Source: an uncultured Opitutales bacterium
GTDB lineage: Bacteria; Verrucomicrobiota; Verrucomicrobiia; Opitutales; Intestinicryptomonadaceae
Assembly: GCA_944389885.1 (NCBI GenBank)
Contig: CALXNZ010000001.1
Span: 1-64,000, forward strand
DNA length: 64,000 nt
Direction: 5' to 3'
Shown: positions 5,055-48,843 of the stretch, one piece after another
Layout: each line of letters begins with the position of its first letter
Position numbering within the stretch: the first letter of the stretch is position 1
Made by a program: the position numbers and the translations under genes
Notes under the pieces: model-generated
Seen by the model: only the letters and a program-made list of their open reading frames with translations
Databases searched by the model: none
What the model was told of the DNA's origin: nothing

Positions 5055-6362
5055 ATGTTTTTGAGAAACTACATATTTAAGTTCGCGTCTATTGCCATTT
5101 CTGGAATAATCATTGCCCAATTATTGGGCTGTGCGGGAACCTCCGTCGAGAATAATCAGAAAGAGCAAAACGTCGCAGCGCCTGCCTTTCCGCCGTCAAA
5201 CACAGGTTGTAAATACGATGTAGCCGCATATGTTTGGCCGGCCTTTCAAGGAACTGAAGACTGGAAACGATACGGATTTTTTCCGGAAGGAGTCGGAGAA
5301 TGGGAATTTGTTTACGGGGCAAAGGCAAAAAAGCCGGGGCATAGACAGCCGCGCGTTCCGCTGTGGGGTTATGAGCAGGAAAACGATCCTATCGTACTCG
5401 CGAGAAAAATCGACGCGTGTTTGGCGGCGGGCGTAAACGTTCTTATTTACGATTGGTATTGGTACGAAGGCAAGCCGTTCTTGGAAGAGGGCGTGAATGC
5501 ATTTTTAAAAGCTCCCAATAACGAACGCATGAAATTTGCCTTGATGTGGGCAAACCACACAATAGACGACCAATGGGACAAAACCGTACCCGTAAAATGT
5601 AAGGATAAGAACGGATATTACAATGTACGCGCATTGGCGACGGTATCTTTAGACGAATTTAAAAACGTTCTCGTCCCGCGCTGGATAAATTATTTTAAAA
5701 AGCCAAACTATTATAAGATAAACGGCAAACCGCTGTTTCAGGTATTCTGCCCCAACGAACTCATAGGTTGGTTCGGGGGCGTTGATAAGGTAAAGGAAGC
5801 CTTTGAATATTTCGACCAAAAAGCGCGCGAAGCCGGATTTGAAGGGGTGGAATTGCAGTGTCAAAACGGGGCGCTTGGCAGCGAAGAAAGCACAAATAAC
5901 CTTTCAAAAGTAGGGTTTACCGGAGCATTCTGTTATAACTGGATGGAATTTGTGCCTTTTTCAGGCTCATATTACCAGGATTATACCGGAATGAAAGATA
6001 TGGACTATAAAGAATGGGGAGAGGCGTGTTTCGCAAAATTTGAAGACAGGGCAAAAAAGCTGAAACAATTCCAGTTTTATCCCAATATAACTTGCGGTTG
6101 GGACTCTAACCCGCGCTTTCCGGATTACGTTTACATACCTGTCACTTTAAATAATACCCCCGAAAGGTTTGAGTACTTTCTGCGCAAAGCCAAGGCCTGG
6201 GCCGACGCAAATATCCCCAGCCACAAACCTAAGCTGATAGTAATAAACGCACTCAACGAGTGGACCGAAGGCTCTTATATAGAGCCCGATACCGAAAACG
6301 GCTACGGATTCTTCAACGCCATAGCGCGCGTATTCGGAGCCCACGGACAAGCGAGGCCCTAA
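5055..6362 (+). CDS. GH99-like / WbsX-domain lipoprotein, probable glycoside hydrolase
   Basis: Outer lipoprotein of 435 aa with signal peptide and lipobox L-L-G-C (Cys26). The body matches the WbsX / GH99-like TIM-barrel family: G-E-W-E-F near residues 82-86, AGVNVLIYDWYWYEG near 130-144, LVPRWINYFKKPNY, GWDSNPR, and the C-terminal N-E-W-T-E-G (401-406) with two glutamates in the usual active-site position. WbsX-type proteins are thought to act on mannose-containing or other surface glycans; exact activity is unknown. Start is ATG 5055 with Shine-Dalgarno AAAGGAG. A paralogue at 42296-43489 shares its scaffold but has lost these motifs. Confidence 0.75.
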   Translation: MFLRNYIFKFASIAISGIIIAQLLGCAGTSVENNQKEQNVAAPAFPPSNTGCKYDVAAYVWPAFQGTEDWKRYGFFPEGVGEWEFVYGAKAKKPGHRQPRVPLWGYEQENDPIVLARKIDACLAAGVNVLIYDWYWYEGKPFLEEGVNAFLKAPNNERMKFALMWANHTIDDQWDKTVPVKCKDKNGYYNVRALATVSLDEFKNVLVPRWINYFKKPNYYKINGKPLFQVFCPNELIGWFGGVDKVKEAFEYFDQKAREAGFEGVELQCQNGALGSEESTNNLSKVGFTGAFCYNWMEFVPFSGSYYQDYTGMKDMDYKEWGEACFAKFEDRAKKLKQFQFYPNITCGWDSNPRFPDYVYIPVTLNNTPERFEYFLRKAKAWADANIPSHKPKLIVINALNEWTEGSYIEPDTENGYGFFNAIARVFGAHGQARP

Positions 6363-6378
6363 GCCAACTTTAAAGACA

Positions 6379-33610: not shown

Positions 33611-35167
33611 TTACTTTTCTTTTAAGTGCGTAAACGAGAACACCGGCAGGCCGTCCCCATTGAAGAGCCATACGTCCGGCTGGGCCCAGCTTTTCCACAA
33701 ATATCTTACGCCCTGAACGTCGGCGACATTCCCGGAGACGGGTTTCACCAATACGCGGCGCCCGAGCATTTCGACTTTTGCGGGTTCCCATTTATCTCCC
33801 ACGAGAACCTCAAAACCTCTTGGGTCGCCTTTCCCGACAAGCTTTCTTCCATAGGTTTCAAAGAAAACTTCCACTCCCCTTGGCCCGTACTTTGCATTTT
33901 TGAGTACGGGAGCATAGGCGTGTATGCCTTTTTTACCGTAAACGTCCTTCAAGACCAACATCGCAAAACGCTTGCCTACGGTTGTTTTATCTTTGGGGTG
34001 TATATCGTTTTCTTCGCCAAGATCTATTATGTTTATAATACCCGACTTCTTAACGACATCTGCGCATTGCAGCTGCTTCCAACGAGTCAATCCCCAATCG
34101 GCCTTTGTGGAGTAGGAAGTGAGCTGAGCCCAGAAGAAATAGAGATCCTCGTTTCCCCAAGCCTTGCGCCAAGCGTCCACAAGCTTTTCAAACTGCTCCA
34201 CGAAAGATTCGAGAGAAGCTCCTCCGGCATCGCTTTCGCCCTGATACCAAATGACCCCGCGCGCGGCATAGCCTGCTATGGGCGCTATTTTCGCGTTAAA
34301 AAGCCCTGATGGAGTCTCTTGATAGCGTTGAGGACTCGTTTTATTGGGGACAGTGCGCACATTGAAGGGCGCCTGCGGAACTTCTTTTCCCTCTTTTTTC
34401 AACTTTGCGACCTCCGCATCGTAAGCTTTTTTGCGCTCGTTCCAATTTTTAAACTCGACTTCGTAGTTATAATTTTCGAGCTGTTTTTTAAACTCGGCCT
34501 GTCTGTCCTCAAGAAACTTTACACCCGCAAAAGATTCCTGGGGTATCCAAGCGCGCATTGCGCTACCGCCAAGAGGTGTTTCAACAAGTCCTATCGGAAC
34601 ATCTAAATCCTTTAGCAATATTTCCCCAAAATAGAACCCTATCGCGTTCATAGCGTCCTGGCTCTCTACGTCGTGCCACTTTGAGCCGGAGGGGGAATCC
34701 CATTCTTTTTCGAGAGATATCTGGTGGGGCTGGCGGAATACGCGCATTAAATTATAAGATTTAGCGCGCTCTTTGGCGTCTTTTGCTTCTGTGGTGTTCT
34801 TTCTGGCCCATTCCATATTCGACTGTCCCGCGGTAATCCAGACTTCGCCCACAAGAATGTCTTTTATATTCTTATCGGCCTTGCCGTTCTCAAGCAAGGT
34901 CATTTCCAAAGGCTCTTTTGACGATGGAAGAGAATCTAAAACAAATTCCCATTTTCCGTCCTTGTCCGATTTTGTCATTTTCTTTTTCCCGGCGAACTCT
35001 ATGCCGATTCTTGCATTCGGAGTAGCCTTCCCCCAAATTTTCAACGGCATATCGCGCTGTAGCACCATTCCGTCGGAAAATATTTTAGGCAGAGTTATTT
35101 CCGCGATAACCGAACCTACCGCAAACATAATTATCGCCGCAAAACAGAGTTTTTTCTTTAATTTCAT
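33611..35167 (-). CDS. Sialate O-acetylesterase (SGNH hydrolase)
   Basis: Secreted esterase of 518 aa removing O-acetyl groups, classically from sialic acid, sometimes from xylan. Signal peptide MKLKKKLCFAAIIMFAVGSVIA, then an Ig-like N-terminal domain (SDGMVLQRDMPLKIWGKA), the nucleophile in T-A-G-Q-S-N-M-E-W (S116), ETPLGGSAMRAW, G-V-I-W-Y-Q-G-E-S-D, and a C-terminal D-I-H-P that supplies the Asp/His. A sialidase-fold protein is encoded at 43879. Single-gene unit. Confidence 0.9.
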   Translation of the reverse strand: MKLKKKLCFAAIIMFAVGSVIAEITLPKIFSDGMVLQRDMPLKIWGKATPNARIGIEFAGKKKMTKSDKDGKWEFVLDSLPSSKEPLEMTLLENGKADKNIKDILVGEVWITAGQSNMEWARKNTTEAKDAKERAKSYNLMRVFRQPHQISLEKEWDSPSGSKWHDVESQDAMNAIGFYFGEILLKDLDVPIGLVETPLGGSAMRAWIPQESFAGVKFLEDRQAEFKKQLENYNYEVEFKNWNERKKAYDAEVAKLKKEGKEVPQAPFNVRTVPNKTSPQRYQETPSGLFNAKIAPIAGYAARGVIWYQGESDAGGASLESFVEQFEKLVDAWRKAWGNEDLYFFWAQLTSYSTKADWGLTRWKQLQCADVVKKSGIINIIDLGEENDIHPKDKTTVGKRFAMLVLKDVYGKKGIHAYAPVLKNAKYGPRGVEVFFETYGRKLVGKGDPRGFEVLVGDKWEPAKVEMLGRRVLVKPVSGNVADVQGVRYLWKSWAQPDVWLFNGDGLPVFSFTHLKEK

Positions 35168-35675: not shown

Positions 35676-35944
35676 ACGCTCTAATTTGTCTTCGCCGCAT
35701 TCAAAAAATATTTTTCATATCAAGCTTTTATATGGAATTAAAAGTCTTATTTTTAAGGGGCGTTTAAACGCTCTATTCGATTATAGATTCTAACCACTCC
35801 GGTATAAAATTTTTCCAGTTAAAAACTTCCCCCTTGCCTGTCCGCTAAAATTTAGAGCAACTTTTCGCAAAAAAAACTCTTGACGGACAAATATAATATA
35901 ATATTGCTCTAACGTTAGAACGACAAATTTACCGGGATTTGAAA
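35676..35944. other. Intergenic region upstream of the LacI operon
   Basis: About 270 bp. It holds the operon promoter/operator and an additional perfect 12-bp palindrome GCGTTTAAACGC (35760-35771). No gene seen. Confidence 0.5.
35880..35919 (+). promoter_or_regulatory. LacI-type operator and promoter region
   Basis: Perfect 12-bp palindrome TCTAACGTTAGA (35908-35919) with the central CG typical of LacI-family operators, immediately after two overlapping TATAAT boxes (35892-35897, 35897-35902) and downstream of TTGACG (35880). The best -35/-10 pairing is not clear. It lies 25 bp before the LacI-family ATG, suggesting autoregulation. Confidence 0.6.
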
Positions 35945-36922
35945 ATGGGAAAGAGGCAAAGGGCAACACTAAAAGACGTGGCAAAAGAAGCCGGAGTAAA
36001 CTTCACGCTCGTATCAAAATTTCTCACCCGCAATCCGCAGGCGAGAATGACTAAAGAAACGCAAAAACGTATAGAGAAAGCCATAAAGAAGCTAAACTAT
36101 CGGCCATCATCGTCGGCGAGAGCCCTGCGCAACGGTATGAGTAAAACGATAGGCCTCTTAAGCGGAGACCTCACCAATTCATACAGGGCCCATGTTGCCA
36201 ATATAGCACTGATAGAATTGCGCAAACTCGGATACCAAATGCTCCTCGCCCTTAGCGAAGGATTTGACGACCACAATGCTGTGCAATCCCTGCTCGCGCG
36301 CGATATAGACGGGGTAATATATATAGGCCCGGGAATACACGATTGGAAGGACCTTCCCTGCCCCGTAATAGCTACCGATAGGAATGTGGCCGGTAAATCC
36401 ACTGCAAATGTAGATTTCGACGACGCGATAAAAGAGGCTTTAAAGGGCATAGAAGGCGAAGTAGTGTCGCTCTGTTTCGACGAATCCGTATGGAAAGATT
36501 CGGTGGAAAGGGTAGGAAACATTCTCGGCCTGAAAACCGAAAACCACTTTCTTCCCTTTGACGTCCACGACAGGCTGGCCAAGCTGCATTCCATATGCAA
36601 AAAGCGCCCACAGGCGATTCTTATAAACGGGTGGCACACCGCTGAAATGCTCACCGAACTTCTCGATTCCGAGGGCGGATCATACAATCCGAAAGTTGTA
36701 ATGCACGCAAACTGCACCGGCCCGTTCATTGGGCACAAGCGAATATCCGGAGCAATATACTCTTCGGGGACCGATATGGTAAAACGCACCTGCTCCGCGC
36801 TCGTTGAAATCATTGAGGGAAAGCTTTCAGAACCTGCGGAGATTAAAATTCCTTCGCGTTACATACCTTCGGATTCTCCGGAATTTTCAAATCTGATTTG
36901 CAGGCATTTCAAGTTAACGTAA
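35945..36922 (+). CDS. LacI-family transcriptional regulator
   Basis: DNA-binding repressor of 325 aa heading the redox operon. N-terminal HTH (about 6-55) reads ATLKDVAKEAGVNFTLVSKFL, with hinge L-N-Y-R-P-S-S-S-A-R-A-L-R, then the periplasmic-binding-protein-like domain (K-T-I-G-L-L-S-G-D to about 300). Ligand unknown; it does not show a clear match to a known sugar subtype. Start chosen at ATG 35945, not the TTG 6 bases upstream. The next gene begins 13 bp after its stop on the same strand. Confidence 0.9.
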   Translation: MGKRQRATLKDVAKEAGVNFTLVSKFLTRNPQARMTKETQKRIEKAIKKLNYRPSSSARALRNGMSKTIGLLSGDLTNSYRAHVANIALIELRKLGYQMLLALSEGFDDHNAVQSLLARDIDGVIYIGPGIHDWKDLPCPVIATDRNVAGKSTANVDFDDAIKEALKGIEGEVVSLCFDESVWKDSVERVGNILGLKTENHFLPFDVHDRLAKLHSICKKRPQAILINGWHTAEMLTELLDSEGGSYNPKVVMHANCTGPFIGHKRISGAIYSSGTDMVKRTCSALVEIIEGKLSEPAEIKIPSRYIPSDSPEFSNLICRHFKLT

Positions 36923-36935
36923 TGAAAGGGCCTTT

Positions 36936-37928
36936 ATGAAATTTACGGTAGGTTGGCAAAATGACGAACTCCTTAAAAAAGCGGTGATGCAAAATCTCCG
37001 TTCCATAAGTGAAATATATTTCCCATGGGGTGGATTTTCGTCGGGTCGCGGCGTCATTATAGGTCCTAAAACCCAACGAAAGCTTGAAGCGGATCTCGAG
37101 GAATTTCGAGATTCCGGCCTGGCTGCAAATCTCCTGTTGAACGCAAACTGCTATGGCCGCAACAGCTTATCCAGAGTTTTTTTTCAGGAGATTGGCGATA
37201 CTGTTAGCGAACTATGCGAACGCTTTGGGTTGAAAAGCGTCACAACAACCTCCCCAATAATTGCAAAATTTTTAAAGGCAAATTTTCCCGACCTTGAAAC
37301 AAGGGCTTCGGTAAATATGGAAATAGGGAATGTAGAGGGAATGGAATACATTGCCCAATGGTTCGATTCGTACTATTTAAAGAGGGAGTACAACTGGCAT
37401 ATAGAAAAAATAACCGAAGCCCGCCAATGGTGCCTAAAAAACGGGAAACGCCTATATCTCTTGGCAAATAGCGGCTGTCTGAATTTCTGTTCGGCGCATA
37501 ATTTTCACGACAACCTTGTGGCGCATCAGCACGAAATTGCCGAAATGGACAACGCCTACGAATTCCACGGCGTTTGCGCCATGTTCATAAAAAAAGAATC
37601 CAATGCCGACCGCCTATTGGAACTCTCAAATTTTATACGCCCGGAAGATGTGCCATTATTTGAAAATCTTTGCGACGGATTAAAACTCGCCACGCGCACA
37701 AACCGCAATCCGTCGGCCGTCGTAAACGCATACTGCGATGGAAGGTATATAGGCAACATATTCGATATTGCGGAACCAAGCCACTCCATATACCCAAAAA
37801 TAGTCGCCAACGACCGCATTCCCGCTGAATACGCAAAAAAAAGGCTCTCCTGCAAGAAGGATTGCCGCGAGTGCGGATATTGCGCCAAAGTACAGGCCGC
37901 CGCAACAGTCAATCTTGAACACATGTAA
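36936..37928 (+). CDS. U32-peptidase-like TIM-barrel Fe-S protein
   Basis: Cytoplasmic protein of 330 aa, unrecognised at the gene level. The pattern T-T-T-S-P-I-I-A-K-F-L-K, ASVNMEIGN, YLKREYNWHIEKI and LANSGCLNFC is like the U32 family (UbiU/UbiV, RlhA, TrhP), which includes Fe-S enzymes doing O2-independent hydroxylation. Cysteines suited to a cluster are C181, C185, C214 and C246; a second set C306-x3-C310-x2-C313-x2-C316 forms a compact tail. Shine-Dalgarno AAAGGG before ATG 36936. It lies between the regulator and three Fe-S oxidoreductases (4-bp gap to the next gene). Confidence 0.55.
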   Translation: MKFTVGWQNDELLKKAVMQNLRSISEIYFPWGGFSSGRGVIIGPKTQRKLEADLEEFRDSGLAANLLLNANCYGRNSLSRVFFQEIGDTVSELCERFGLKSVTTTSPIIAKFLKANFPDLETRASVNMEIGNVEGMEYIAQWFDSYYLKREYNWHIEKITEARQWCLKNGKRLYLLANSGCLNFCSAHNFHDNLVAHQHEIAEMDNAYEFHGVCAMFIKKESNADRLLELSNFIRPEDVPLFENLCDGLKLATRTNRNPSAVVNAYCDGRYIGNIFDIAEPSHSIYPKIVANDRIPAEYAKKRLSCKKDCRECGYCAKVQAAATVNLEHM

Positions 37929-37932
37929 ACAT

Positions 37933-39021
37933 ATGAAAGAACTCACAAGCGAAATGGTGAAGGAGGCCGCTCTTGCTGCAGGAGCGGACCTTGTAGGAAT
38001 AGGCAGCATGGACCGCTTTGAAAGCGCTCCGAAAGAATTGGATCCCAGACGGGTATTCCCCGAGGCAAAAAGCGTCATAGGAATGGCTTTTCGCATTCCA
38101 CGCGGCCTACAGCGCGGAATAGAAGAAGGAACCCAATTCTACCAATATCCATCAATGGCATACGGTGGGATTAACGAAATCTTCGCTCCGGCCGTTCTCT
38201 ACCAGGTTGGAAGGCTCATAGAGGACTGCGGATACGAAGCGGCAGTGTATCGCAATACGGGGGCGCGCGGCTGCGTATCAGATATGGACGGAACTCCCGG
38301 AAACACGCTTTCTCCGGAAGAACAGATAGAAATTACAGAGATGGCAAAAAACGGAGCGCCCCTTTGGAAATACGATTATAATCGCGCGGTGACGGCGCGC
38401 CCGGCGCGCCCCGGACAAATACCTCCGGATCTTCTGATACATTTTAGACTTGTGGGAGTCGCTTGCGGACTCGGCGAAATGGGATGGAGCAAAATGTTCC
38501 TAACTCCGGAATTCGGTCCCCTGCAAAGGCTCGCCTTTATATTTACCGACGCCCCGCTAAAACCGGATCCATTATATTCGGGCAAGCCGCTTTGCCGCAG
38601 GTGCATGGCCTGCGCCCGCGAATGTCCGGGACAATGCCTTAGCACAAAGGAAAGCATAAAGGTGACAGTCGGGGGAAAAGTCTGCGAATGGGGCAAGCTC
38701 GACGAATGGAAATGCTACGCTTTCTACACGCACGGAGGGCGCAAATTCAATCCGTTTGTTCCCAAGAAAGTATGGGACGAAAATAAAAACGGAGACCTTG
38801 ACCTTATGGAGGGCAAAAAAGAGGCAAATGTCGAGGAGGTTCTCAAAGTATACGGTTCTTTGGAAAAATATTTTCCGTCATGGGTCGGATACAATATGGC
38901 AAAATGCGGAGGCTGCATAAGGGCTTGCGTAAGCATGCTGGAAAAACCCGGCGGCTGCATGCACGGACGATTCAAAAAGCCGTTGCGCCGCACCGGAAAA
39001 GCATGGGTAATGGACCGCTAA
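37933..39021 (+). CDS. Double-cluster Fe-S oxidoreductase, QueG/RdhA-like, paralogue A
   Basis: Cytoplasmic protein of 362 aa, no Tat or Sec signal. The N-terminal two-thirds fit the COG1600-type fold (G-A-D-L-V-G-I-G at 17-24; PEAKSVIGMAF; L-V-G-V-A-C-G-L-G-E-M-G-W-S near 173-186; EFGPLQRLAFIFTD). The 4Fe-4S ferredoxin motif is C221-x2-C224-x2-C227-x3-C231-P; a second set is C325, C328, C332, C342. Relatives include epoxyqueuosine reductase and reductive dehalogenases; cofactor and substrate here are unknown. Start at ATG 37933; the longer frame overlaps the previous gene. It carries a ~40-aa insert (about 270-310) absent from B and C. Confidence 0.7.
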   Translation: MKELTSEMVKEAALAAGADLVGIGSMDRFESAPKELDPRRVFPEAKSVIGMAFRIPRGLQRGIEEGTQFYQYPSMAYGGINEIFAPAVLYQVGRLIEDCGYEAAVYRNTGARGCVSDMDGTPGNTLSPEEQIEITEMAKNGAPLWKYDYNRAVTARPARPGQIPPDLLIHFRLVGVACGLGEMGWSKMFLTPEFGPLQRLAFIFTDAPLKPDPLYSGKPLCRRCMACARECPGQCLSTKESIKVTVGGKVCEWGKLDEWKCYAFYTHGGRKFNPFVPKKVWDENKNGDLDLMEGKKEANVEEVLKVYGSLEKYFPSWVGYNMAKCGGCIRACVSMLEKPGGCMHGRFKKPLRRTGKAWVMDR

Positions 39022-39042
39022 TCCAAATTAAAAGGACACACT

Positions 39043-39948
39043 ATGTTAAACGCGCAAATCATAAAGGAAAAAGCCATAGAATACGGAGCGGATCTGGTAG
39101 GGATAGGCGATATATCGCTATTTTCCGGAACAATGCCGCAACGCGATCCCAAACAAATACTGCCCTACGCTACATGCGTAATCGGTTTTGCATTCAGAGT
39201 GCCGCGCATGCTGTATAAGACGATGAAAGACAAGACACAATTCTTCAACTATACCCAGCTTGGCGTAAAATACATGGATGAAGAAATGGCCGAAGTTTTT
39301 CTTCTAAAAATGGGAGCTTTAATAGAGAACAACGGATATGACGCATGTCTGCAAAGGAACGTGTCGAATCTCCGCATAAAGGGGGATAAGACGACAAATC
39401 CTGAGCTTGGCGACACTTACGAACTAATACATGTGGAGCCTGTTTCGCCCGATAAGCCAGTGCCGGAAATAATAATGGACTTCAACCAAGCCGGACAAAT
39501 TTGCGGACTCGGGAAAGCCGGAATGTCGGGACATTTCATATCGCCAAAATTTGGCCCGTATGTGAGGTTGGCATTCATAGTGACAGACGCCCCCTTGGAG
39601 TGCGACGCTCCGTTTGAAGGCGACCTGTGCGACAAATGCGGGAAATGCATACAGGCATGCCCCGGCCACGCTATATCCGAAAACGGAACCGATACGTGGC
39701 AATGCGCGGTATATTATCGCGGAGCCCACAAATCAAACCCGTTTATGACCGACGATTTCCTCAAAGGAGATCCCGAACGCGAAGCTATTGTCAACGGGCA
39801 AAAACGCTTCACAAGCGAGAGCGCGCGGGCAATATACCCCAAGCTCGATTTTCTCCCATGCCGTCCAACGGGATATGCGCCCTGCATATGCGGCAAAGCT
39901 TGCGACACTTCATGCTATGAACATTTAAAAGAAAAGGGGATACTATGA
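39043..39948 (+). CDS. Double-cluster Fe-S oxidoreductase, paralogue B
   Basis: A 301-aa paralogue of A and C. It keeps G-A-D-L-V-G-I-G (15-22), C-G-L-G-K-A-G-M-S (154-162) and KFGPYVRLAFIVTD. Cluster 1 is C196-x2-C199-x2-C202-x3-C206-P; further Cys at 221; cluster 2 is C281, C283, C287, C291 in A-P-C-I-C-G-K-A-C-D-T-S-C-Y. Clear Shine-Dalgarno AAAGGA before the ATG. It overlaps gene C by four bases (ATGA), so B and C are translationally coupled and may form a complex. Function inferred only at the level of a redox protein. Confidence 0.7.
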   Translation: MLNAQIIKEKAIEYGADLVGIGDISLFSGTMPQRDPKQILPYATCVIGFAFRVPRMLYKTMKDKTQFFNYTQLGVKYMDEEMAEVFLLKMGALIENNGYDACLQRNVSNLRIKGDKTTNPELGDTYELIHVEPVSPDKPVPEIIMDFNQAGQICGLGKAGMSGHFISPKFGPYVRLAFIVTDAPLECDAPFEGDLCDKCGKCIQACPGHAISENGTDTWQCAVYYRGAHKSNPFMTDDFLKGDPEREAIVNGQKRFTSESARAIYPKLDFLPCRPTGYAPCICGKACDTSCYEHLKEKGIL

Positions 39949-40883
39949 GCAATCTCAAAGAGAAACTTGTCAAACACCTGAAAAAAAGCGGGATAGACAT
40001 CGTAAAATTCGGAAACGCAGAGCGCTTTAGAGACAGGCAAATCTACAAGCTAATGCCGGATGCAAAGACGGTAATATGCATAGCAGCCCGCCAGCTTCGG
40101 GGGGCCCGAAGGGGAGTCGAAGAGGGTACCACGTTTCACCATTTTTCGACCTTGGCCATAGAAACAGTTGACGAAACAGTACTGCCGTTCGCCTTGCTGA
40201 GGGGATGCGCAATGCTTGAGGACGAGGGTTTCGACGCCCTTCCCCAGCGCAGAAACCAGCTTATAATGAACGAATCCGACAGCACAAATCCCGAAGTCGA
40301 CTACGCAAAAATATACCGCGGTAAAAGCGCCGAGACTATACTCGATTTTGAGAGCTGCGCGGTGGATTGCGGACTCGGCGAGCTCGGTCTTTCCGGCTCA
40401 GTGCTTACAGAGGAGTTTGGCCCCTGCCAACGTTTCGCATTCATAATCACGAACGCCGAGATTGAACCTGATCCGCAAGTGAAGCCGCATCTATGCGATA
40501 AATGCGGCGAGTGCATAAAGGGGTGTCCCGGCCACGCCATATCTCCGGACGGCAAATTGAACCGCTGGCAGTGCGCGGCTTACTACATAGGCGCCAACCG
40601 CACTAAAAATCCGTTCATGCCGGCCTACGCCTTCGAGGACGAGCCAAATAAAGACGCGATTATAAGCGGCGAGGCGAACCTCACTCCGGACCAGGCGAAG
40701 CGCGTGATAGACGAGATACACTTCTATCCTCCGATACGCCACGCATACTGTTCCAGCATATGCGGCAAAGCTTGTGATACCGAATGTTATATACATCTCG
40801 AAAGGAAGGGTGTTTTAAAAAATAAATTTAAATCCCCCTTCAGAAAGCGGCCCGTCTGGAAATTGCCAATCGACGGGGAATAA
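39945..40883 (+). CDS. Double-cluster Fe-S oxidoreductase, paralogue C
   Basis: A 312-aa paralogue. C-G-L-G-E-L-G-L-S (142-150), EFGPCQRFAFIIT, cluster 1 C184-x2-C187-x2-C190-x3-C194-P, Cys210, cluster 2 C269, C273, C277, C281 in C-G-K-A-C-D-T-E-C-Y-I-H-L. The N-terminal G-A-D-L-V-G-I-G of A and B is replaced by S-G-I-D-I-V-K-F-G, and R-G-A-R-R-G takes the place of the neutral loop, so its active-site face has diverged. Starts inside the end of B. Basic C-terminal tail (KNKFKSPFRKRPVWK). Confidence 0.7.
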   Translation: MSNLKEKLVKHLKKSGIDIVKFGNAERFRDRQIYKLMPDAKTVICIAARQLRGARRGVEEGTTFHHFSTLAIETVDETVLPFALLRGCAMLEDEGFDALPQRRNQLIMNESDSTNPEVDYAKIYRGKSAETILDFESCAVDCGLGELGLSGSVLTEEFGPCQRFAFIITNAEIEPDPQVKPHLCDKCGECIKGCPGHAISPDGKLNRWQCAAYYIGANRTKNPFMPAYAFEDEPNKDAIISGEANLTPDQAKRVIDEIHFYPPIRHAYCSSICGKACDTECYIHLERKGVLKNKFKSPFRKRPVWKLPIDGE

Positions 40884-40905
40884 TCCGCATTTTAGAATTC
40901 AAATT

Positions 40906-40950
40906 GCCATTGCGCGTCCTTGGCGCGCGATGGCGTTTGGATTGTTTTTT
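40906..40950 (+). terminator. Hairpin between Fe-S gene C and MFS gene (attenuator or weak terminator)
   Basis: Eleven-bp stem GCCATTGCGCG (40906-40916) with CGCGCGATGGC (40924-40934), 7-nt loop, then T-rich sequence with six T ten bases later. Its place inside a co-oriented cluster suggests partial termination or mRNA stabilisation rather than an operon end. Confidence 0.55.
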
Positions 40951-40982
40951 AATTTGATAATCATAACGAGAGGAAAAGGATT

Positions 40983-42281
40983 ATGGAGAACGATTTTGTA
41001 AATACGCTGAGCCACAAGGAGCGCAAACGGTATCATATATACGCACTTGCATCAACGTGGTTTGGCTGTTTCTCGGACGTGATGATAGACAGCAGCGCAA
41101 TCCTTATCCTATATTTTGCCATGCTTGGCGCAAGCGATTCGGAAACAATGTTTACTACAGCTTTCGTTTCGATAGCGTCGATGCTATTTATGATACCGGC
41201 GTCGGGGCTTGTGAATAAATTGGGCGCCAAAAGCGTCGTGGCCATATCGAGTTTCATCGGGACTTCCGCATGCCTGCTGATGGCGATAGCCCCGATATTT
41301 GGCACTTCGTACGGATGTTTCGTAGCATTGTCGGGGTGTTTTATTTACAGCATTTCAAAGGCCACATGGCCGGTCGCCTGGTATGTCGTGCTTGGCAACA
41401 TACTACTTCCAAAAGAGCGCGGAAATTTTTTGGGGTTCATGAGATTCAGCTATTACATCTTAACGGGGATCACATTTTGGATAATAGGGCACTACATGGG
41501 AAAAAATCCTCCGATATTGTTTCTGCAGGTGGTCATAGCAATAATAGGAATCATGGTGCTCGGAAGAACATTTTTTATTTCTATGATAAGACTTCCCGAA
41601 CAGGTCTCAGGGCGACTCGACTTCGCAAAATCTTTTAAATCGGTAGTGCGCAATACGCCGCTCGTGGGATTTGCCGCCTATGTGGGATTTATATGCCTTG
41701 CATTCGCCGCGGTGCTCCCTCTGACGCTGCTATATCTAAAAAGCGGATTAAACCTCCCCGAAGGACTGGTGCAGGAAATATCCGCCGTAGGCATAGGGGG
41801 CCTCGTATTGGGCTTCTTCGTTTACGGAAGGCTTGTAAAGTTAATTGGGATTAAGAATGTCCAAATAATAGTGCATCTAATTTACATAATCACTCCCCTG
41901 TGCCTATTTTTCTGCAGCAAGGAAGTTCCATATGTGGAATGGATAGCGGGGGCGTTCTATGTATTGGGAAGCTTCGGATTCGCATGTTTCTACTGCTATA
42001 TGTCCCAAGAAATACTGGCGTTGTCGAGGCCGTCAAATCTCTCAATGGCCAGCGCATTCGTGCAAACCTATCAATTTATAGGCACAACATGCAGTCGCGG
42101 AGCGATATCTTTTCTCATCGGCAGCGGAATGCTTGCAAGCTCTTGGACAAAATGGGGAATAAACTTTACGCACTTTCAAACACTTTTCCTTATAAGTTCC
42201 GCGATAGCCGTATTTTGCCTTATAATGGTATTCTGCCTGCCAAGCGTGATAAAGGACAAAGAAGACTACTATAACCCTTAG
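40983..42281 (+). CDS. MFS transporter
   Basis: Inner-membrane carrier of 432 aa with about 12 helices; the two halves are separated by a short cytoplasmic loop around residue 215. The first helix region (ALASTWFGCFSDVMIDSSAILILYFAM) and PKERGNFLGFMR after helix 4 fit MFS. Substrate unknown. A good Shine-Dalgarno (GAGGAAAAGG) precedes ATG 40983. Being last in the LacI-headed cluster, it probably imports the substrate of the Fe-S enzymes or exports the product. Confidence 0.8.
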   Translation: MENDFVNTLSHKERKRYHIYALASTWFGCFSDVMIDSSAILILYFAMLGASDSETMFTTAFVSIASMLFMIPASGLVNKLGAKSVVAISSFIGTSACLLMAIAPIFGTSYGCFVALSGCFIYSISKATWPVAWYVVLGNILLPKERGNFLGFMRFSYYILTGITFWIIGHYMGKNPPILFLQVVIAIIGIMVLGRTFFISMIRLPEQVSGRLDFAKSFKSVVRNTPLVGFAAYVGFICLAFAAVLPLTLLYLKSGLNLPEGLVQEISAVGIGGLVLGFFVYGRLVKLIGIKNVQIIVHLIYIITPLCLFFCSKEVPYVEWIAGAFYVLGSFGFACFYCYMSQEILALSRPSNLSMASAFVQTYQFIGTTCSRGAISFLIGSGMLASSWTKWGINFTHFQTLFLISSAIAVFCLIMVFCLPSVIKDKEDYYNP

Positions 42282-42295
42282 AGCCAGCGCCAAGA

Positions 42296-43489
42296 CTACC
42301 TCGCTTGGCCATGGGAACCAAATACTCCGGCCACGGCATTGAGAAAATCGTATTCCGATTGTTTTCCGGAATCGACTCCGGATTCAAGCGCGCTTTTTCC
42401 GAGCGAATCTATGATTATAAGCTTAGATTTTTTCCCGCTGATATTTCTATCAGTCCACAACTTCGCCTTGCGCAAGAAATACTCGAACTTTTGTCTATTT
42501 CCGCCGATTACCACAAAATCCCCATTGGCGGACTGCAGAGAAATCTGTGGAAGAATGTCGCAAGAAACATTAGGATAAAATTGAAGTTGCGGGTAGGTTT
42601 TTGCGAGGGAATCAAATATCGAGAAAAATATGTCGCCCCAAACTTTATAATCCAATCGTGTTTTCCCTATGAGATTTAGTTCTTCAAAATCCGAGAAATG
42701 CACGGTCTCAAGCCAGTTTAGGCAGAAGACGCTTTTAAATCCCATTCTGAAACATAATTCCGCATTATCCGGGTTTGACATAGGCCCAAGCGCACATTGA
42801 AACTCTACGCCGTCGAGTCCAGCTTCTATTGCTTTTTTCTCAAAATATTTGAAATTCGACAATACCCCGTCCGGCCCCCCAAACCATCTTGCCAGAGAAA
42901 CCGGATTTGAAACTTGAAACAAGGGCTTGCCATTCACCTTATAATAATTCGGACGTTTAAAATATTCTATCCAACGCGGGACAAGCACATGCCTAAATTC
43001 ATGCTCCGAAATTTCCGCGGTTTCATTTAATCCTATGCCGCGAGCTCCCCAGATATCGCATACAGGAACCGGCATTTTCCAAAAATCTTTTGCGCTCCGA
43101 TTGGTCCAAACTATCGCAAACATCATGCGCTCCGAATTTGGAGCCTTAAAAAAATCGCATAGGCCATTTTCAATAAAATCTCCATTTTCAAGAACTCTCC
43201 AATCGTAGATAAATACGTTAATTCCAGCGGCAAGGCACGAGTCTATTTTGTGTGCCAGCTCTTTGCCCCCAGAGCCGCTGTGTTTTTCGGAAGCCACAAA
43301 TGGAGCCTGCGGCATAAAAATAGCCACATCATATTTTGAGCTTAATTGTCGGGGCTCTCCGTCCGAAATATTTTTATTCGACGCGTCCGAAAGGCATGAA
43401 ACTTGCGGCAACGGCACGACGACCGCCAAAACAATGGCGAAACACAATCCGCTGCATTTAGTTCCGATAAGCGATTTGAGGCGTTTCAT
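42296..43489 (-). CDS. GH99-like/WbsX paralogue that lacks the active-site motifs (pseudoenzyme)
   Basis: Exported 397-aa protein, clearly a paralogue of the 5055 lipoprotein: shared AAGINVFIYDW, KAPNSERMMFA, VPRWIEYFKRPNYYKVNG, KFEYFLRKAK and the end G-V-F-G-S-H-G-Q-A-R. In the same alignment the enzyme motifs are gone: YDWYWYEG became YDWRVLENG, GWDSNPR became DILPQIS, NEWTEGSYIEPD became SLGKSALESGVD, and the ~40-residue segment with G-E-W-E-F is missing. It has a signal region (VLAVVVPLPQVSC, possible lipobox Cys). It probably binds but does not cleave a glycan. Frame is intact, so not a decaying gene. Confidence 0.75.
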   Translation of the reverse strand: MKRLKSLIGTKCSGLCFAIVLAVVVPLPQVSCLSDASNKNISDGEPRQLSSKYDVAIFMPQAPFVASEKHSGSGGKELAHKIDSCLAAGINVFIYDWRVLENGDFIENGLCDFFKAPNSERMMFAIVWTNRSAKDFWKMPVPVCDIWGARGIGLNETAEISEHEFRHVLVPRWIEYFKRPNYYKVNGKPLFQVSNPVSLARWFGGPDGVLSNFKYFEKKAIEAGLDGVEFQCALGPMSNPDNAELCFRMGFKSVFCLNWLETVHFSDFEELNLIGKTRLDYKVWGDIFFSIFDSLAKTYPQLQFYPNVSCDILPQISLQSANGDFVVIGGNRQKFEYFLRKAKLWTDRNISGKKSKLIIIDSLGKSALESGVDSGKQSEYDFLNAVAGVFGSHGQAR

Positions 43490-43583: not shown

Positions 43584-43895
43584 ATGAAGAGGAAAAAATA
43601 CAATCCGTCGCCCTTGGATTTTACAGAAGTAAAGTTGTCGGACGAGATGCTTGAATTGACCGACAGCCTCGCCCGAAACGTGCACGAAATATGGGCGAAA
43701 AATAGAATTGAGCATGGCTGGAGCTATGGCCCCGCACGCGACGACGCCCTAAAACGACACCCCTGTATAATCCCCTATGACGAACTTTCGGAGGAGGAAA
43801 AACTATACGACAAAAATACGGCCATGGAAACAATCAAGGCCATATTGTCGCTTGGTTTTGAGATTAGGAAAGCCCCCACTACTTCAGGGCATTAA
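43584..43895 (+). CDS. RyR (ryanodine receptor) domain protein
   Basis: A 103-aa cytoplasmic protein consisting almost entirely of one RyR domain: Y-N-P-S-P-L-D, L-S-D-E-M-L-E-L, N-V-H-E-I-W-A, R-I-E-H-G-W-S-Y-G, H-P-C-I-I-P-Y-D-E-L, E-K-L-Y-D-K-N and L-S-L-G-F-E-I at the end. Bacterial RyR-domain proteins occur widely but have no settled role. Start ATG 43584. Its last 17 bases overlap the convergent sialidase-like gene. Confidence 0.88.
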   Translation: MKRKKYNPSPLDFTEVKLSDEMLELTDSLARNVHEIWAKNRIEHGWSYGPARDDALKRHPCIIPYDELSEEEKLYDKNTAMETIKAILSLGFEIRKAPTTSGH

Positions 43896-45654
43896 AATTG
43901 CCAACGGCTTCCGACACGCTCAAAGCCCTGTCATAAAAGCGTACGACATCTACCTTTAAATTGTCGGAAACGCCTATTTCCGATGTGGAAGCCCAACAGT
44001 TGACGTCGGTCATAGTTTTGTCGAATCTCTTCCACCCGCAATAAGAGTATTCGCCGCCGTCGCAAAGCCTGCCGTCTATAATGCAAGAGACTATTCTCGC
44101 ATAGGCGTCAACTATCAATACGATGTGGTGTTTTTTCCCCTCGGAAATCGAGGAAATATCGCTGCAATATGTGAAGTTTATCCTATAATTGCTTAAAGTA
44201 AGAGCTATGGAGGAGTTTCCTCCAACGAGGAGTTCGGTTCCTCCCCCAAATGGATTCATACCCCTGTATATGACGTCTCCTTTTTTAAGTTTTTTAAAAT
44301 CCACCACAAATTCCATAGTAAAAGACGACTTATCTAATTTCGGCAATTTCACTGCATTTATGGTTTTGCCGCCTTTTGGTATATCCAAAGCTTCAAAGAA
44401 AACGCCTCTATTGGTTGCGGTACGCGTCACGGATTGATTCCAAAGGGCTTCAAGAAAATCCGCGGGAATTTCGCGTACGCGCGCTTTCACCTTTTGAGTC
44501 TCGCTCACCCAATAACGACCCTTGCTCTCAATGAAGTCGGGATAGCTATAACGCCCCGTTTCCGGAGTGGTATCTTCGGGATTGTGCAGGAGTATCTCCG
44601 GCTGGCTCCACTCTATTTTGCCGTCTTTCTCCACTCCGCCTGCAACCCATACGGGATTGCGGTTGATGAGACCGCGCTGGGAATGATTGTGAAACCATAA
44701 TAGATACTTGCCGTTTAAAGCCTTGTACAGCTTGGGACAAGCGCGCGGAGTCTTCATTGGGCGGCCGTCGGGATATCTTACAAAGTCCGGCTCCGACCAT
44801 GTTTTGCCACCGTCGCGGCTGTACGAACATGCCGGATATCCAAGCGTGGTTCTATATACACAATATAGGGATCCGTCCGAAAGTTCCACGAGGTTATGCT
44901 CCTCTTGAACGGAACCGAAGTTCGCATTGCGTATGCCGTAATCGCCCTCAGGAAGCATAACCCAATCAAGCTTTTTAGGATCGCGCTCTGTCTGTATATT
45001 GTCGCAGCGGAACATCCAGCCCTCTCCCATATCCTGCATATATTTTCCAAGTTTTGAAAAGCAAAAAGCCACAGCGCCATTGGCAAGGCGCTTCGGTTTG
45101 TCTATTCCCCAAAATATTTGGACTTTTCCCTTCCAATCGTTCTCGCGGTCGCATGCGGTGACCCTTACTGGAAGCCTATGGCGCTCCGACCATGTGGAAC
45201 CGCAATCGTCGCTATATCTATAACAGTACCAACCAAGCATATCGTTGCGCGGAATTTTTTTACCATTTAGAGAATCTATATTGTCGCCGTTAAAGTCGTA
45301 AAATACATAAATGCGGCCGTAATCCGTTATGAACGGAATAGCCCATGATGAGGAAGGCCCGTCCGAAGTCTCTATTGGGCAGGGCTTAGACCAAGTCTTG
45401 CCGTTATCGGAAGAAAGCATGGACACTATATGTTGTCCCTTGCTGCCCTCCTCGCCCTCGGCTGTTGTAAAGACGCAAAACCAGCGGCCGTCCGGAAGTA
45501 CAGCCATGTAAGGCTGGTCAACATACCCGTTGTCATATATGGAGTGTCCATTTGGCGCATAGCGCCAATCGTCGGACAAATTTATGGCATGAGATGAAGC
45601 CGCACATGCTATAAATGCAGCCACCATTGAGATAATTTTCTTTATTTGCGTCAT
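43879..45654 (-). CDS. Secreted sialidase-fold protein with C-terminal LamG-like domain
   Basis: Exported 591-aa protein (signal MTQIKKIISMVAAFIACAASSHA). Residues 25-400 form a six-bladed BNR propeller with three Asp boxes: SSDNGKTW (81-88), SDDCGSTW (148-155), SRDGGKTW (279-286), and the early Y-V-D-Q-P-Y-M-A-V-L-P-D-G strand. Residues about 430-590 look like a concanavalin/LamG jelly roll. Likely exo-sialidase or a sialidase-like hydrolase; the Arg triad of GH33 cannot be assigned with certainty. It is 14 bp after the heme-c gene, so a two-gene operon. Confidence 0.75.
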   Translation of the reverse strand: MTQIKKIISMVAAFIACAASSHAINLSDDWRYAPNGHSIYDNGYVDQPYMAVLPDGRWFCVFTTAEGEEGSKGQHIVSMLSSDNGKTWSKPCPIETSDGPSSSWAIPFITDYGRIYVFYDFNGDNIDSLNGKKIPRNDMLGWYCYRYSDDCGSTWSERHRLPVRVTACDRENDWKGKVQIFWGIDKPKRLANGAVAFCFSKLGKYMQDMGEGWMFRCDNIQTERDPKKLDWVMLPEGDYGIRNANFGSVQEEHNLVELSDGSLYCVYRTTLGYPACSYSRDGGKTWSEPDFVRYPDGRPMKTPRACPKLYKALNGKYLLWFHNHSQRGLINRNPVWVAGGVEKDGKIEWSQPEILLHNPEDTTPETGRYSYPDFIESKGRYWVSETQKVKARVREIPADFLEALWNQSVTRTATNRGVFFEALDIPKGGKTINAVKLPKLDKSSFTMEFVVDFKKLKKGDVIYRGMNPFGGGTELLVGGNSSIALTLSNYRINFTYCSDISSISEGKKHHIVLIVDAYARIVSCIIDGRLCDGGEYSYCGWKRFDKTMTDVNCWASTSEIGVSDNLKVDVVRFYDRALSVSEAVGNFNALK

Positions 45655-46805: not shown

Positions 46806-47052
46806 AAAGTTAAACCTTTTAAAGATTAAGCTCACGACTCTCAAGAGGAAAATTGCATATATAAAAAAACGATTTACAATACAATCTCAGCGCCTTCATC
46901 TTTTGTTTATGTGGATTTTAAAATTTACAAAAATGTTAGAAATGGAAAATAAGATGTCATTATGAATACTTGCCATTGCGCGGGAAAGCCCTAAAATTTT
47001 TTTGCGAACGGCGGGACGTCGCCAGCGTATAATAACGACAATCAATAAGAAA

Positions 47053-48843
47053 ATGGCATTCAAAATAATAAGTTTAGGAAAAGCGTTTATAACAATATTT
47101 TTCTTTTTTAGCGCAATCATATTAAAGGCCGAAAATGAGGAAAGTGAGTTGTTTTCCAATGCGGAAGTCGCCGTAAAAAATATAAACGGGAAAGAGGAAA
47201 TAATGCGAGTGGCTCTCGAAAAGCGCGACGACGGCGCATGGAGATTCAACATGCCCAAAAGCGCGATTCCCGCGGACGCCGATTGGATAGACGTCATAAT
47301 ACCCGCCGCATACGCAAAAAAAGGCGACGATGGCTTTTTTATAACGACAACCAGCGCCATAGGCACATTTTCGCGCGAAAATGGAGAATTTAGGAGCACG
47401 CGCAACTATTACGCATTCTTTGGAATGAAAACTCCGGAGGCTGCATGGACTGCCATAATAAAGGGCTTGGAACTGGAATTTGAATATGTGGCAAAAGCCC
47501 AAAACGGAATATACCGGATATTTCCGCGATTTAGAATAAAAGACATAGGCTTTCCTCCCTACGAAGACATCACAGTAGATTTCTATCCCATGGGCGGAAA
47601 CGCCAGCTACGCGGACATGGCGCGCAAATACCGCAATTACCAGTTGGACAGAGGCGAAGTTGTACCTTTGCGCGAGCGCATAAAAGACAATCCAAAGCTC
47701 GAGCGCATGGCGAAGTCTATACTTTTCAGAATACAACACGGCGGCAAAAAACTATATATGGAAAATGGAAAGAGGGTTCCGAAGGACTTTACGCCTGAAA
47801 CCGAACTTCCACTCAGAGTTGCTTGCACATTCGCCCAGGGAACGGCCGCCATACGCGCCTTGAAGGCCGCCGGCTGCGACTACGTTGACATACACGAAGT
47901 AGGTTGGAACATACGCGGGCACGACGGCAGATATCCGCAGCTTTTTCCCGTAGAGCCAGCATTGGGCGGAGAGGAAGGCTTGAAGGAAACTGTGAGGGCT
48001 GCAAAAGAATGCGGATACAATATATCCGCCCACACAAACCACACCGACGCCTACACGGTCGCGGACTGTTGGAGCGAAGATTATATCGCAAAGCTGCGCG
48101 ACGGAAAGCTGATGTATGTGGGCGCGTGGTCCGGAGGCAAAGCATACACGCCTTGTCCCGCGGCTATTTTCAACAGATTTGTCAAAAAAGATTACAGGAA
48201 AATCTTGGATCTCGGCTTTAACGGGTTGCACCATGTAGATGTGATATCGGCCATATCTCCGCGGACATGCTTCGACCCCGAACACCCGCTAAACCGCAAG
48301 GAATGGACTAAAGCGTACCTAAAGATAATGAAATACGCAAAAAAACTTACGGGGGGCTTCACGTCGGAATGCGGGTTCGACCATGTCATAAAACATTTGG
48401 ATTACGCCTTTTATATCAACCACAAGTTTAAAATATCCAATAATATGCTCGATAGGTACGTCCCCATATGGCAGATAGTTTACCACGGCATAGTTCCAAG
48501 CCAGGCTTCATACGACGACACCAATCCTTCAATAAAGCCCGAAGCCGAAGCAAAGGCCGCCCGTTTAAGGCTTGCGGAATTTGGCGGCAGGCCCGTATTC
48601 TACGCCGGCTGGAGAGACCTCGTGCACATTCCAAGAATCAAGAAGACCTACGACGAATACCAGAAAATGAGCCGCCTCCAGCTTGAATTTATGGAGGACC
48701 ATAAAAAACTTTCAGACGACGTATATCTGACAGTTTACGGAGACGGAACCGAAATTGTCACCAACTATACGAAGAAGCCATTTGAATATAAGGGCATAAA
48801 AGTGGCTCCCGAGGACTATGCCATGATAGAGCCTATGAAATAA
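47053..48843 (+). CDS. Exported TIM-barrel protein (DUF5696/GH101-like), putative glycosidase
   Basis: A 596-aa exported protein; signal peptide MAFKIISLGKAFITIFFFFSAIILKA after ATG 47053 (the frame to 47002 begins with TTG). N-terminal beta domain (about 27-190, with Y-P-M-G-G-N-A-S-Y-A-D-M-A-R-K-Y-R near 195), then a barrel with DIHEVGWNIRGHDGRYPQ, AHTNHTDAY, and LGFNGLHHVDVIS with candidate acidic residues. Looks like DUF5696, which is GH101-related, but I cannot confirm the catalytic pair. Convergent with the DUF6259 gene. Confidence 0.55.
   Translation: MAFKIISLGKAFITIFFFFSAIILKAENEESELFSNAEVAVKNINGKEEIMRVALEKRDDGAWRFNMPKSAIPADADWIDVIIPAAYAKKGDDGFFITTTSAIGTFSRENGEFRSTRNYYAFFGMKTPEAAWTAIIKGLELEFEYVAKAQNGIYRIFPRFRIKDIGFPPYEDITVDFYPMGGNASYADMARKYRNYQLDRGEVVPLRERIKDNPKLERMAKSILFRIQHGGKKLYMENGKRVPKDFTPETELPLRVACTFAQGTAAIRALKAAGCDYVDIHEVGWNIRGHDGRYPQLFPVEPALGGEEGLKETVRAAKECGYNISAHTNHTDAYTVADCWSEDYIAKLRDGKLMYVGAWSGGKAYTPCPAAIFNRFVKKDYRKILDLGFNGLHHVDVISAISPRTCFDPEHPLNRKEWTKAYLKIMKYAKKLTGGFTSECGFDHVIKHLDYAFYINHKFKISNNMLDRYVPIWQIVYHGIVPSQASYDDTNPSIKPEAEAKAARLRLAEFGGRPVFYAGWRDLVHIPRIKKTYDEYQKMSRLQLEFMEDHKKLSDDVYLTVYGDGTEIVTNYTKKPFEYKGIKVAPEDYAMIEPMK

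Follow-up and report, generated by a model that had tools for sequence, protein, structure and literature searches.

Judged from its sequence, a six-gene cassette in the genome of an uncultured Opitutales bacterium is a real, mobile, inducible and anaerobic unit containing two new sub-branches of known protein superfamilies. It lies in the 64,000-nucleotide window analysed here (positions 1–64,000 of contig CALXNZ010000001.1; the genome is labelled G000) and encodes, on the plus strand, a LacI-family regulator, a divergent U32-type barrel protein (U32L), three paralogues of the reductive dehalogenase (RdhA)/QueG superfamily (A, B and C) and an MFS carrier. We read it as part of an inducible anoxic pathway in which a glycosidase, import by the MFS carrier, a cobamide/Fe–S reductase (A with B and C) and U32L would take part, and give this overall reading a probability of roughly 0.55. 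In uncultured gut bacteria, a single mobile cassette that a substrate would induce thereby unites new branches of two groups: the U32 barrels and a superfamily of B12 enzymes whose main known roles are dehalogenation and the synthesis of queuosine. Literature searches found no description of the U32L-A-B-C gene set, in line with the original prediction, a reading of the DNA letters that knew of no such described system; a plasmid search returned a single remote reductive dehalogenase as its only match.

The open reading frames for the regulator (35945..36922; PF00356, 3e-12), U32L (36936..37928), A (37933..39021), B (39043..39948), C (39945..40883) and the carrier (40983..42281; PF07690, 5e-15) are separated by 13, 4, 21, −4 and 99 bp, exactly as first reported for six co-oriented genes. 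Homologues were sought in 289 genomes of the phylum. U32L was present in 72 of them, and an A-type gene lay within 3.5 kb of U32L in 39 of the 42 loci whose neighbourhoods were read (two of these 39 end at contig edges). A, B and C occurred together at 21 loci, a two-gene form at one, and a single A-like gene at 15. The core order U32L-A-B-C is conserved, so that relatives share an arrangement rather than occurring as isolated genes, and the complete form, counted at about 25 loci, spans five families of the phylum, Lentisphaeria included. Named carriers comprise uncultured Lentisphaeria, Victivallales and Opitutales as well as one bacterium deposited as Verrucomicrobiaceae. Within the window's genus the cassette was found in 6 of 14 genomes: the full LacI-U32L-A-B-C-MFS order recurs in G292 and G300, LacI-U32L-A-B-C in G293, and U32L, A, B and C with the MFS gene in G291; in G297 A-B-C is divergent from U32L and accompanied by another carrier. 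The outer flanks differ among the congeners. Their LacI orthologues share 49–53% identity, and the MFS orthologues of G291, G292 and G300 49–66%; elsewhere other carriers take the place of the MFS protein. At L066 (G260) the two-gene form U32L-A-B′ stands behind a GH106 rhamnosidase gene and is intermediate between the one- and three-gene cassettes. At L073 (G083) an IclR-type regulator gene separates U32L from the single A-like gene, and directly upstream of this pair a QueG-like protein with DUF1730 is encoded (5119–6366).

Sequence and profile matches, and for A the predicted fold, place A, B and C in the COG1600-type superfamily, as had been proposed. Pfam and NCBIfam searches returned Fer4 matches together with sub-threshold matches to TIGR02486 (reductive dehalogenase; 58.6, 54.5 and 35.5 bits for A, B and C, at best 37% of the curated cut-off of 160) and to TIGR00276 (QueG; 27.7, 44.3 and 37.5 bits, cut-off 200). 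TIGR02486 was the best NCBIfam match for A and B. Searched by sequence against the PDB, A aligned to PceA and QueG, with a reductive dehalogenase as best match; profile comparison to the superfamily gave an E-value of 7e-22, and hhalign scored the shared core at 99.4% to QueG. Foldseek matched the predicted structure of A (pLDDT 82) best to PceA (4UQU), QueG and NpRdhA (4RAS), with E-values of 1e-8 to 1e-6. All three paralogues have the C-x2-C-x2-C-x3-C motif and the second four-cysteine set noted earlier (in A, C221/224/227/231 and C261/(325)/328/332, seven of the eight being invariant), and they share the GLG-x-FGP-x-R core with RdhA. PceA, NpRdhA and QueG, the solved members among the matches, are cobamide enzymes with two [4Fe-4S] clusters.

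Unlike RdhA, the window's proteins are three cytoplasmic paralogues accompanied by U32L and a LacI-type regulator; they have no twin-arginine leader, A starting at the core domain, and the operon contains neither an rdhB anchor gene nor any other small membrane gene. The region of A aligned with the PceA Tyr246 helix contains no conserved Tyr, although it aligns poorly. Like QueG, A–C are short soluble proteins, but in a combined alignment with 25 QueG sequences neither the DxGPxxE catalytic loop nor the GKN motif was found in them, and the C-terminal tRNA-binding part is absent. When QueG Asp134 was placed onto A by sequence, the nearest acid fell one position off at an ambiguous gap, and the mapping failed. 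The genome has its own separate QueG gene, and QueG is lacking in most cassette carriers outside the genus, which argues against a housekeeping role in queuosine synthesis. Given the missed cut-offs, the missing QueG motifs and the separate QueG gene, we assign A, B and C, on sequence grounds, to a third branch of the superfamily that is neither QueG nor RdhA. A would then be a cytoplasmic reductase carrying a cobamide and two [4Fe-4S] clusters. The cobamide is suggested by fold and superfamily together with two cobalamin riboswitches of the host, one of them followed by a TonB-receptor plug of the BtuB type. A cobalamin riboswitch at G000:C14:54039–54255 (L109) stands before a gene with an ATP-cone type N-terminus, which we take, by eye, to be ribonucleotide-reductase-like.

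Comparison of A with a housekeeping marker indicated how the cassette spreads. A is 79–84% identical within the genus and 68–80%, mostly 77%, identical in other families, whereas RpoC of the same genomes drops from 78–88% within the genus to 45–62% across families; QueG reaches only 51–53% even within the genus. Since A retains across families about the identity that it has within the genus while RpoC does not, we take these values to show horizontal exchange of the cassette among anaerobic gut Verrucomicrobiota and Lentisphaeria. The tree resolves A, B and C as distinct groups with support, within which the families are intermingled, and in one pair of genomes from different genera A is identical. 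Misbinning is possible for short contigs; several carriers are on contigs longer than 60 kb. The claim of a tandem triplication needs division: three paralogues do stand in tandem, but a recent triplication is contradicted, A on the one hand and B and C on the other being ancient, separately conserved lineages.

The three lineages are conserved to different degrees across families (A about 77%, B 70%, C 61%). Moreover, the single-gene form is A-like, neither B nor C was observed in the absence of A, and a GLGE-x-G-x-SK motif kept in A and the single A-like proteins is lost from B and C. High conservation, occurrence alone and retention of this motif indicate that A is probably the catalytic core. 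The odds are slightly below even that the three proteins assemble into one hetero-oligomer with A as its only catalytic subunit, B and C serving for electron transfer or to keep the complex intact. The fixed gene order and the equally fixed 4-bp overlap of B and C are in keeping with such a complex, but the preservation of both cluster motifs in B and C is not what it would lead one to expect. It is doubtful that the three proteins are successive reductases of one polyoxygenated substrate, an alternative raised in the original prediction: all three do retain the eight cysteines and share the position of an acidic residue (D/E) before the GLG motif, but their strict 1:1:1 conservation, their unequal rates and the loss of active-site motifs in B and C fit subunits better.

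U32L had no match in Pfam, PF01136 included, at a cut-off of E 0.1, and when it was compared by hidden Markov model with the U32 proteins of the genome itself, the best E-value was 0.1; its assignment thus rests on fold. The AlphaFold2 model (pLDDT 93.9) matched MK0906 (5D88) best of 350,542 chains in Foldseek (E 2.4e-11, TM 0.74 by target). With MK0906 and with UbiU/UbiV, RlhA and TrhP (PMC11574389), U32L shares the TIM-barrel fold and cluster-type cysteines. However, the cysteine motif of U32 oxidases, CX6CX15CX3C (PMC11574389), was found in none of 45 aligned U32L relatives but in the two classical U32 proteins of the window's genome. A different set, C72, C181, C185 and C214, is invariant in all 45, and 39 carry an additional C-terminal CX3CX2CX2C motif. 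The U32-like barrel proposed earlier is borne out by the fold, with cysteines other than those of the U32-oxidase motif; its predicted structure makes U32L a new branch among U32 barrels. Some U32L-family genes have no RdhA-like partner (L072, G123:C6, 7795–12499; L074, G103; L077). They form tandem arrays of four in G123 and three in G103, the former adjoining genes for a B12-dependent methionine synthase and a homocysteine methyltransferase–MTHFR fusion. A further homologue match (G073:C23:74888–75874) has an in-frame TAA at the frame edge.

Regulation links the cassette to glycosidases. The operator before lacI, GCTCTAACGTTAGAAC (35906..35921, no strand assigned), contains the LacI-type palindrome TCTAACGTTAGA at 35908–35919. 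As 12 bases this palindrome is weak evidence, with 1.8 sites at up to two mismatches expected per window. The element GCTCTAACGTTAGA, however, stands before lacI in the window, G292, G293 and G300, with 14–16 bp identical in these three diverged congeners, and recurs within the lacI–U32L gap of G292 and G293. Each of the four congeneric operons has a TTGAC box 26–32 bp ahead of the operator (in the window TTGACG, 35880..35885, plus strand, compared with L104, L105 and L107). In other families, a one-mismatch site was found in the lacI–U32L gap of G112 and a two-mismatch site before lacI of G168. Genome scans for the element revealed one more exact match, in G293 (C26), a site with one mismatch at C11:54353 of the window's genome and, in G292 (C8), a two-mismatch site orthologous to that of G293. 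Each is directly before a gene for a secreted DUF5696 protein, with a GDSL esterase gene next in G292 and G293. The three genomes have 12 (window's genome, some being pieces of one gene), 11 (G292) and 9 (G293) DUF5696 matches. By a rough estimate the regions upstream of such genes amount to well below 1% of a genome, so chance would not be expected to place a site there in all three genomes. Operator matches inside a gene in G112 (C146) and inside a coding frame in G300 (C51) were judged to be chance; one in G168 (C100) precedes a radical-SAM-like gene.

The DUF5696 proteins are homologous to an α-N-acetylgalactosaminidase (5WZN) and a 3,6-anhydro-D-galactosidase (5OPQ), whose structures they match and which we take to be GH129 enzymes; they differ in being secreted and in their low identity to these. 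Their alignment shows Asp and Glu at the expected places, presumably the catalytic residues. DUF5696 genes adjoin the cassette at L035, L040 (by similarity) and L107, and the window holds one at 47002..48843 (plus strand; PF18952, 1.9e-40; 5WZN, 9e-18). The number of DUF5696/GH129-like matches is very uneven in the genus, from 70 in G297, 41 in G300 and 32 in G291 to the above 12 in the window's genome and none in G298, G299 and G301. Other carriers of the cassette have GH78, GH106, GH28, GH63/MGH1, DUF5696 and DUF4838 proteins, an aldose epimerase and transport proteins of several families, sugar-type included, as neighbours. The predicted LacI control thus finds a sequence basis in one operator placed before lacI and before DUF5696 genes, an autogenous palindrome shared by the regulon as in LacI-regulated sugar operons. 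This sharing with a GH129-like glycosidase favours a glycoside-derived substrate.

Put together, a secreted GH129-like enzyme may free a small molecule from an α-glycoside, which the MFS protein would import, and LacI would be released from GCTCTAACGTTAGA. A could then reductively break a C–O (or C–X) bond of the imported molecule, with B and C, which are derived copies that invariably accompany A, acting as partner subunits or as consecutive reductases. U32L, as a two-cluster barrel, might carry out a coupled step on the same substrate, transferring or removing a hydroxyl group, or feed electrons to the reductase. Several observations weigh against this pathway. For A, the Foldseek TM-scores are low (about 0.4), and the model is poor over loop 110–155. 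The acid motif of QueG and Tyr246 of PceA have no clear counterpart in the alignment, made partly by hand, so the chemistry could differ. No operator was found at the window's own DUF5696 gene, and these genomes hold so many glycosidases that neighbourhood alone is a weak argument. A more specific proposal, which we put forward only tentatively and think rather unlikely to hold, combines a hetero-trimeric A-B-C cobamide/Fe–S reductase with U32L as a new class of Fe–S barrel: working together and independently of O2, they would take oxygen off a sugar-derived molecule or shift its position there. If true, this would to our knowledge be the first case of the RdhA/QueG superfamily serving carbohydrate catabolism. 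Through the operator and its GH129-like regulon, the question of function becomes one that can be tested, by looking for a single glycoside that induces the cassette.

True reductive dehalogenation of natural organohalides is improbable. The best PDB match of A and the best NCBIfam match of both A and B point that way, but the scores far below the cut-off, the missing leader, anchor gene and clear Tyr246 equivalent, and the link to glycosidases do not. Least probable is a second QueG-like RNA-modification pathway with a U32 hydroxylase, for although both superfamilies hold RNA-modifying enzymes (QueG, RlhA and TrhP; PMC11574389 for U32), the cassette is patchy within the genus, is under LacI control with a carrier, shares its operator with glycosidases, lacks the QueG-type C-terminal part and coexists with a separate QueG gene and two classical U32 genes.

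The frame of the regulator extends upstream to a TTG at 35939, but comparison with the congeners makes ATG 35945 the more likely start. In the gap between C and the MFS gene (~40906..40934, plus strand) a perfect 13-bp stem-loop (minimum free energy −32.3, z −3.2) resembles an attenuator or terminator without a clean U-run, so that expression of the MFS gene may be partly independent of the core genes. Opposite-strand genes for SASA esterase, WbsX/GH99-like and BNR sialidase-like proteins (33611–35167, 42296–43489 and 43879–45654) flank the cassette, which suggests the use of host glycans.

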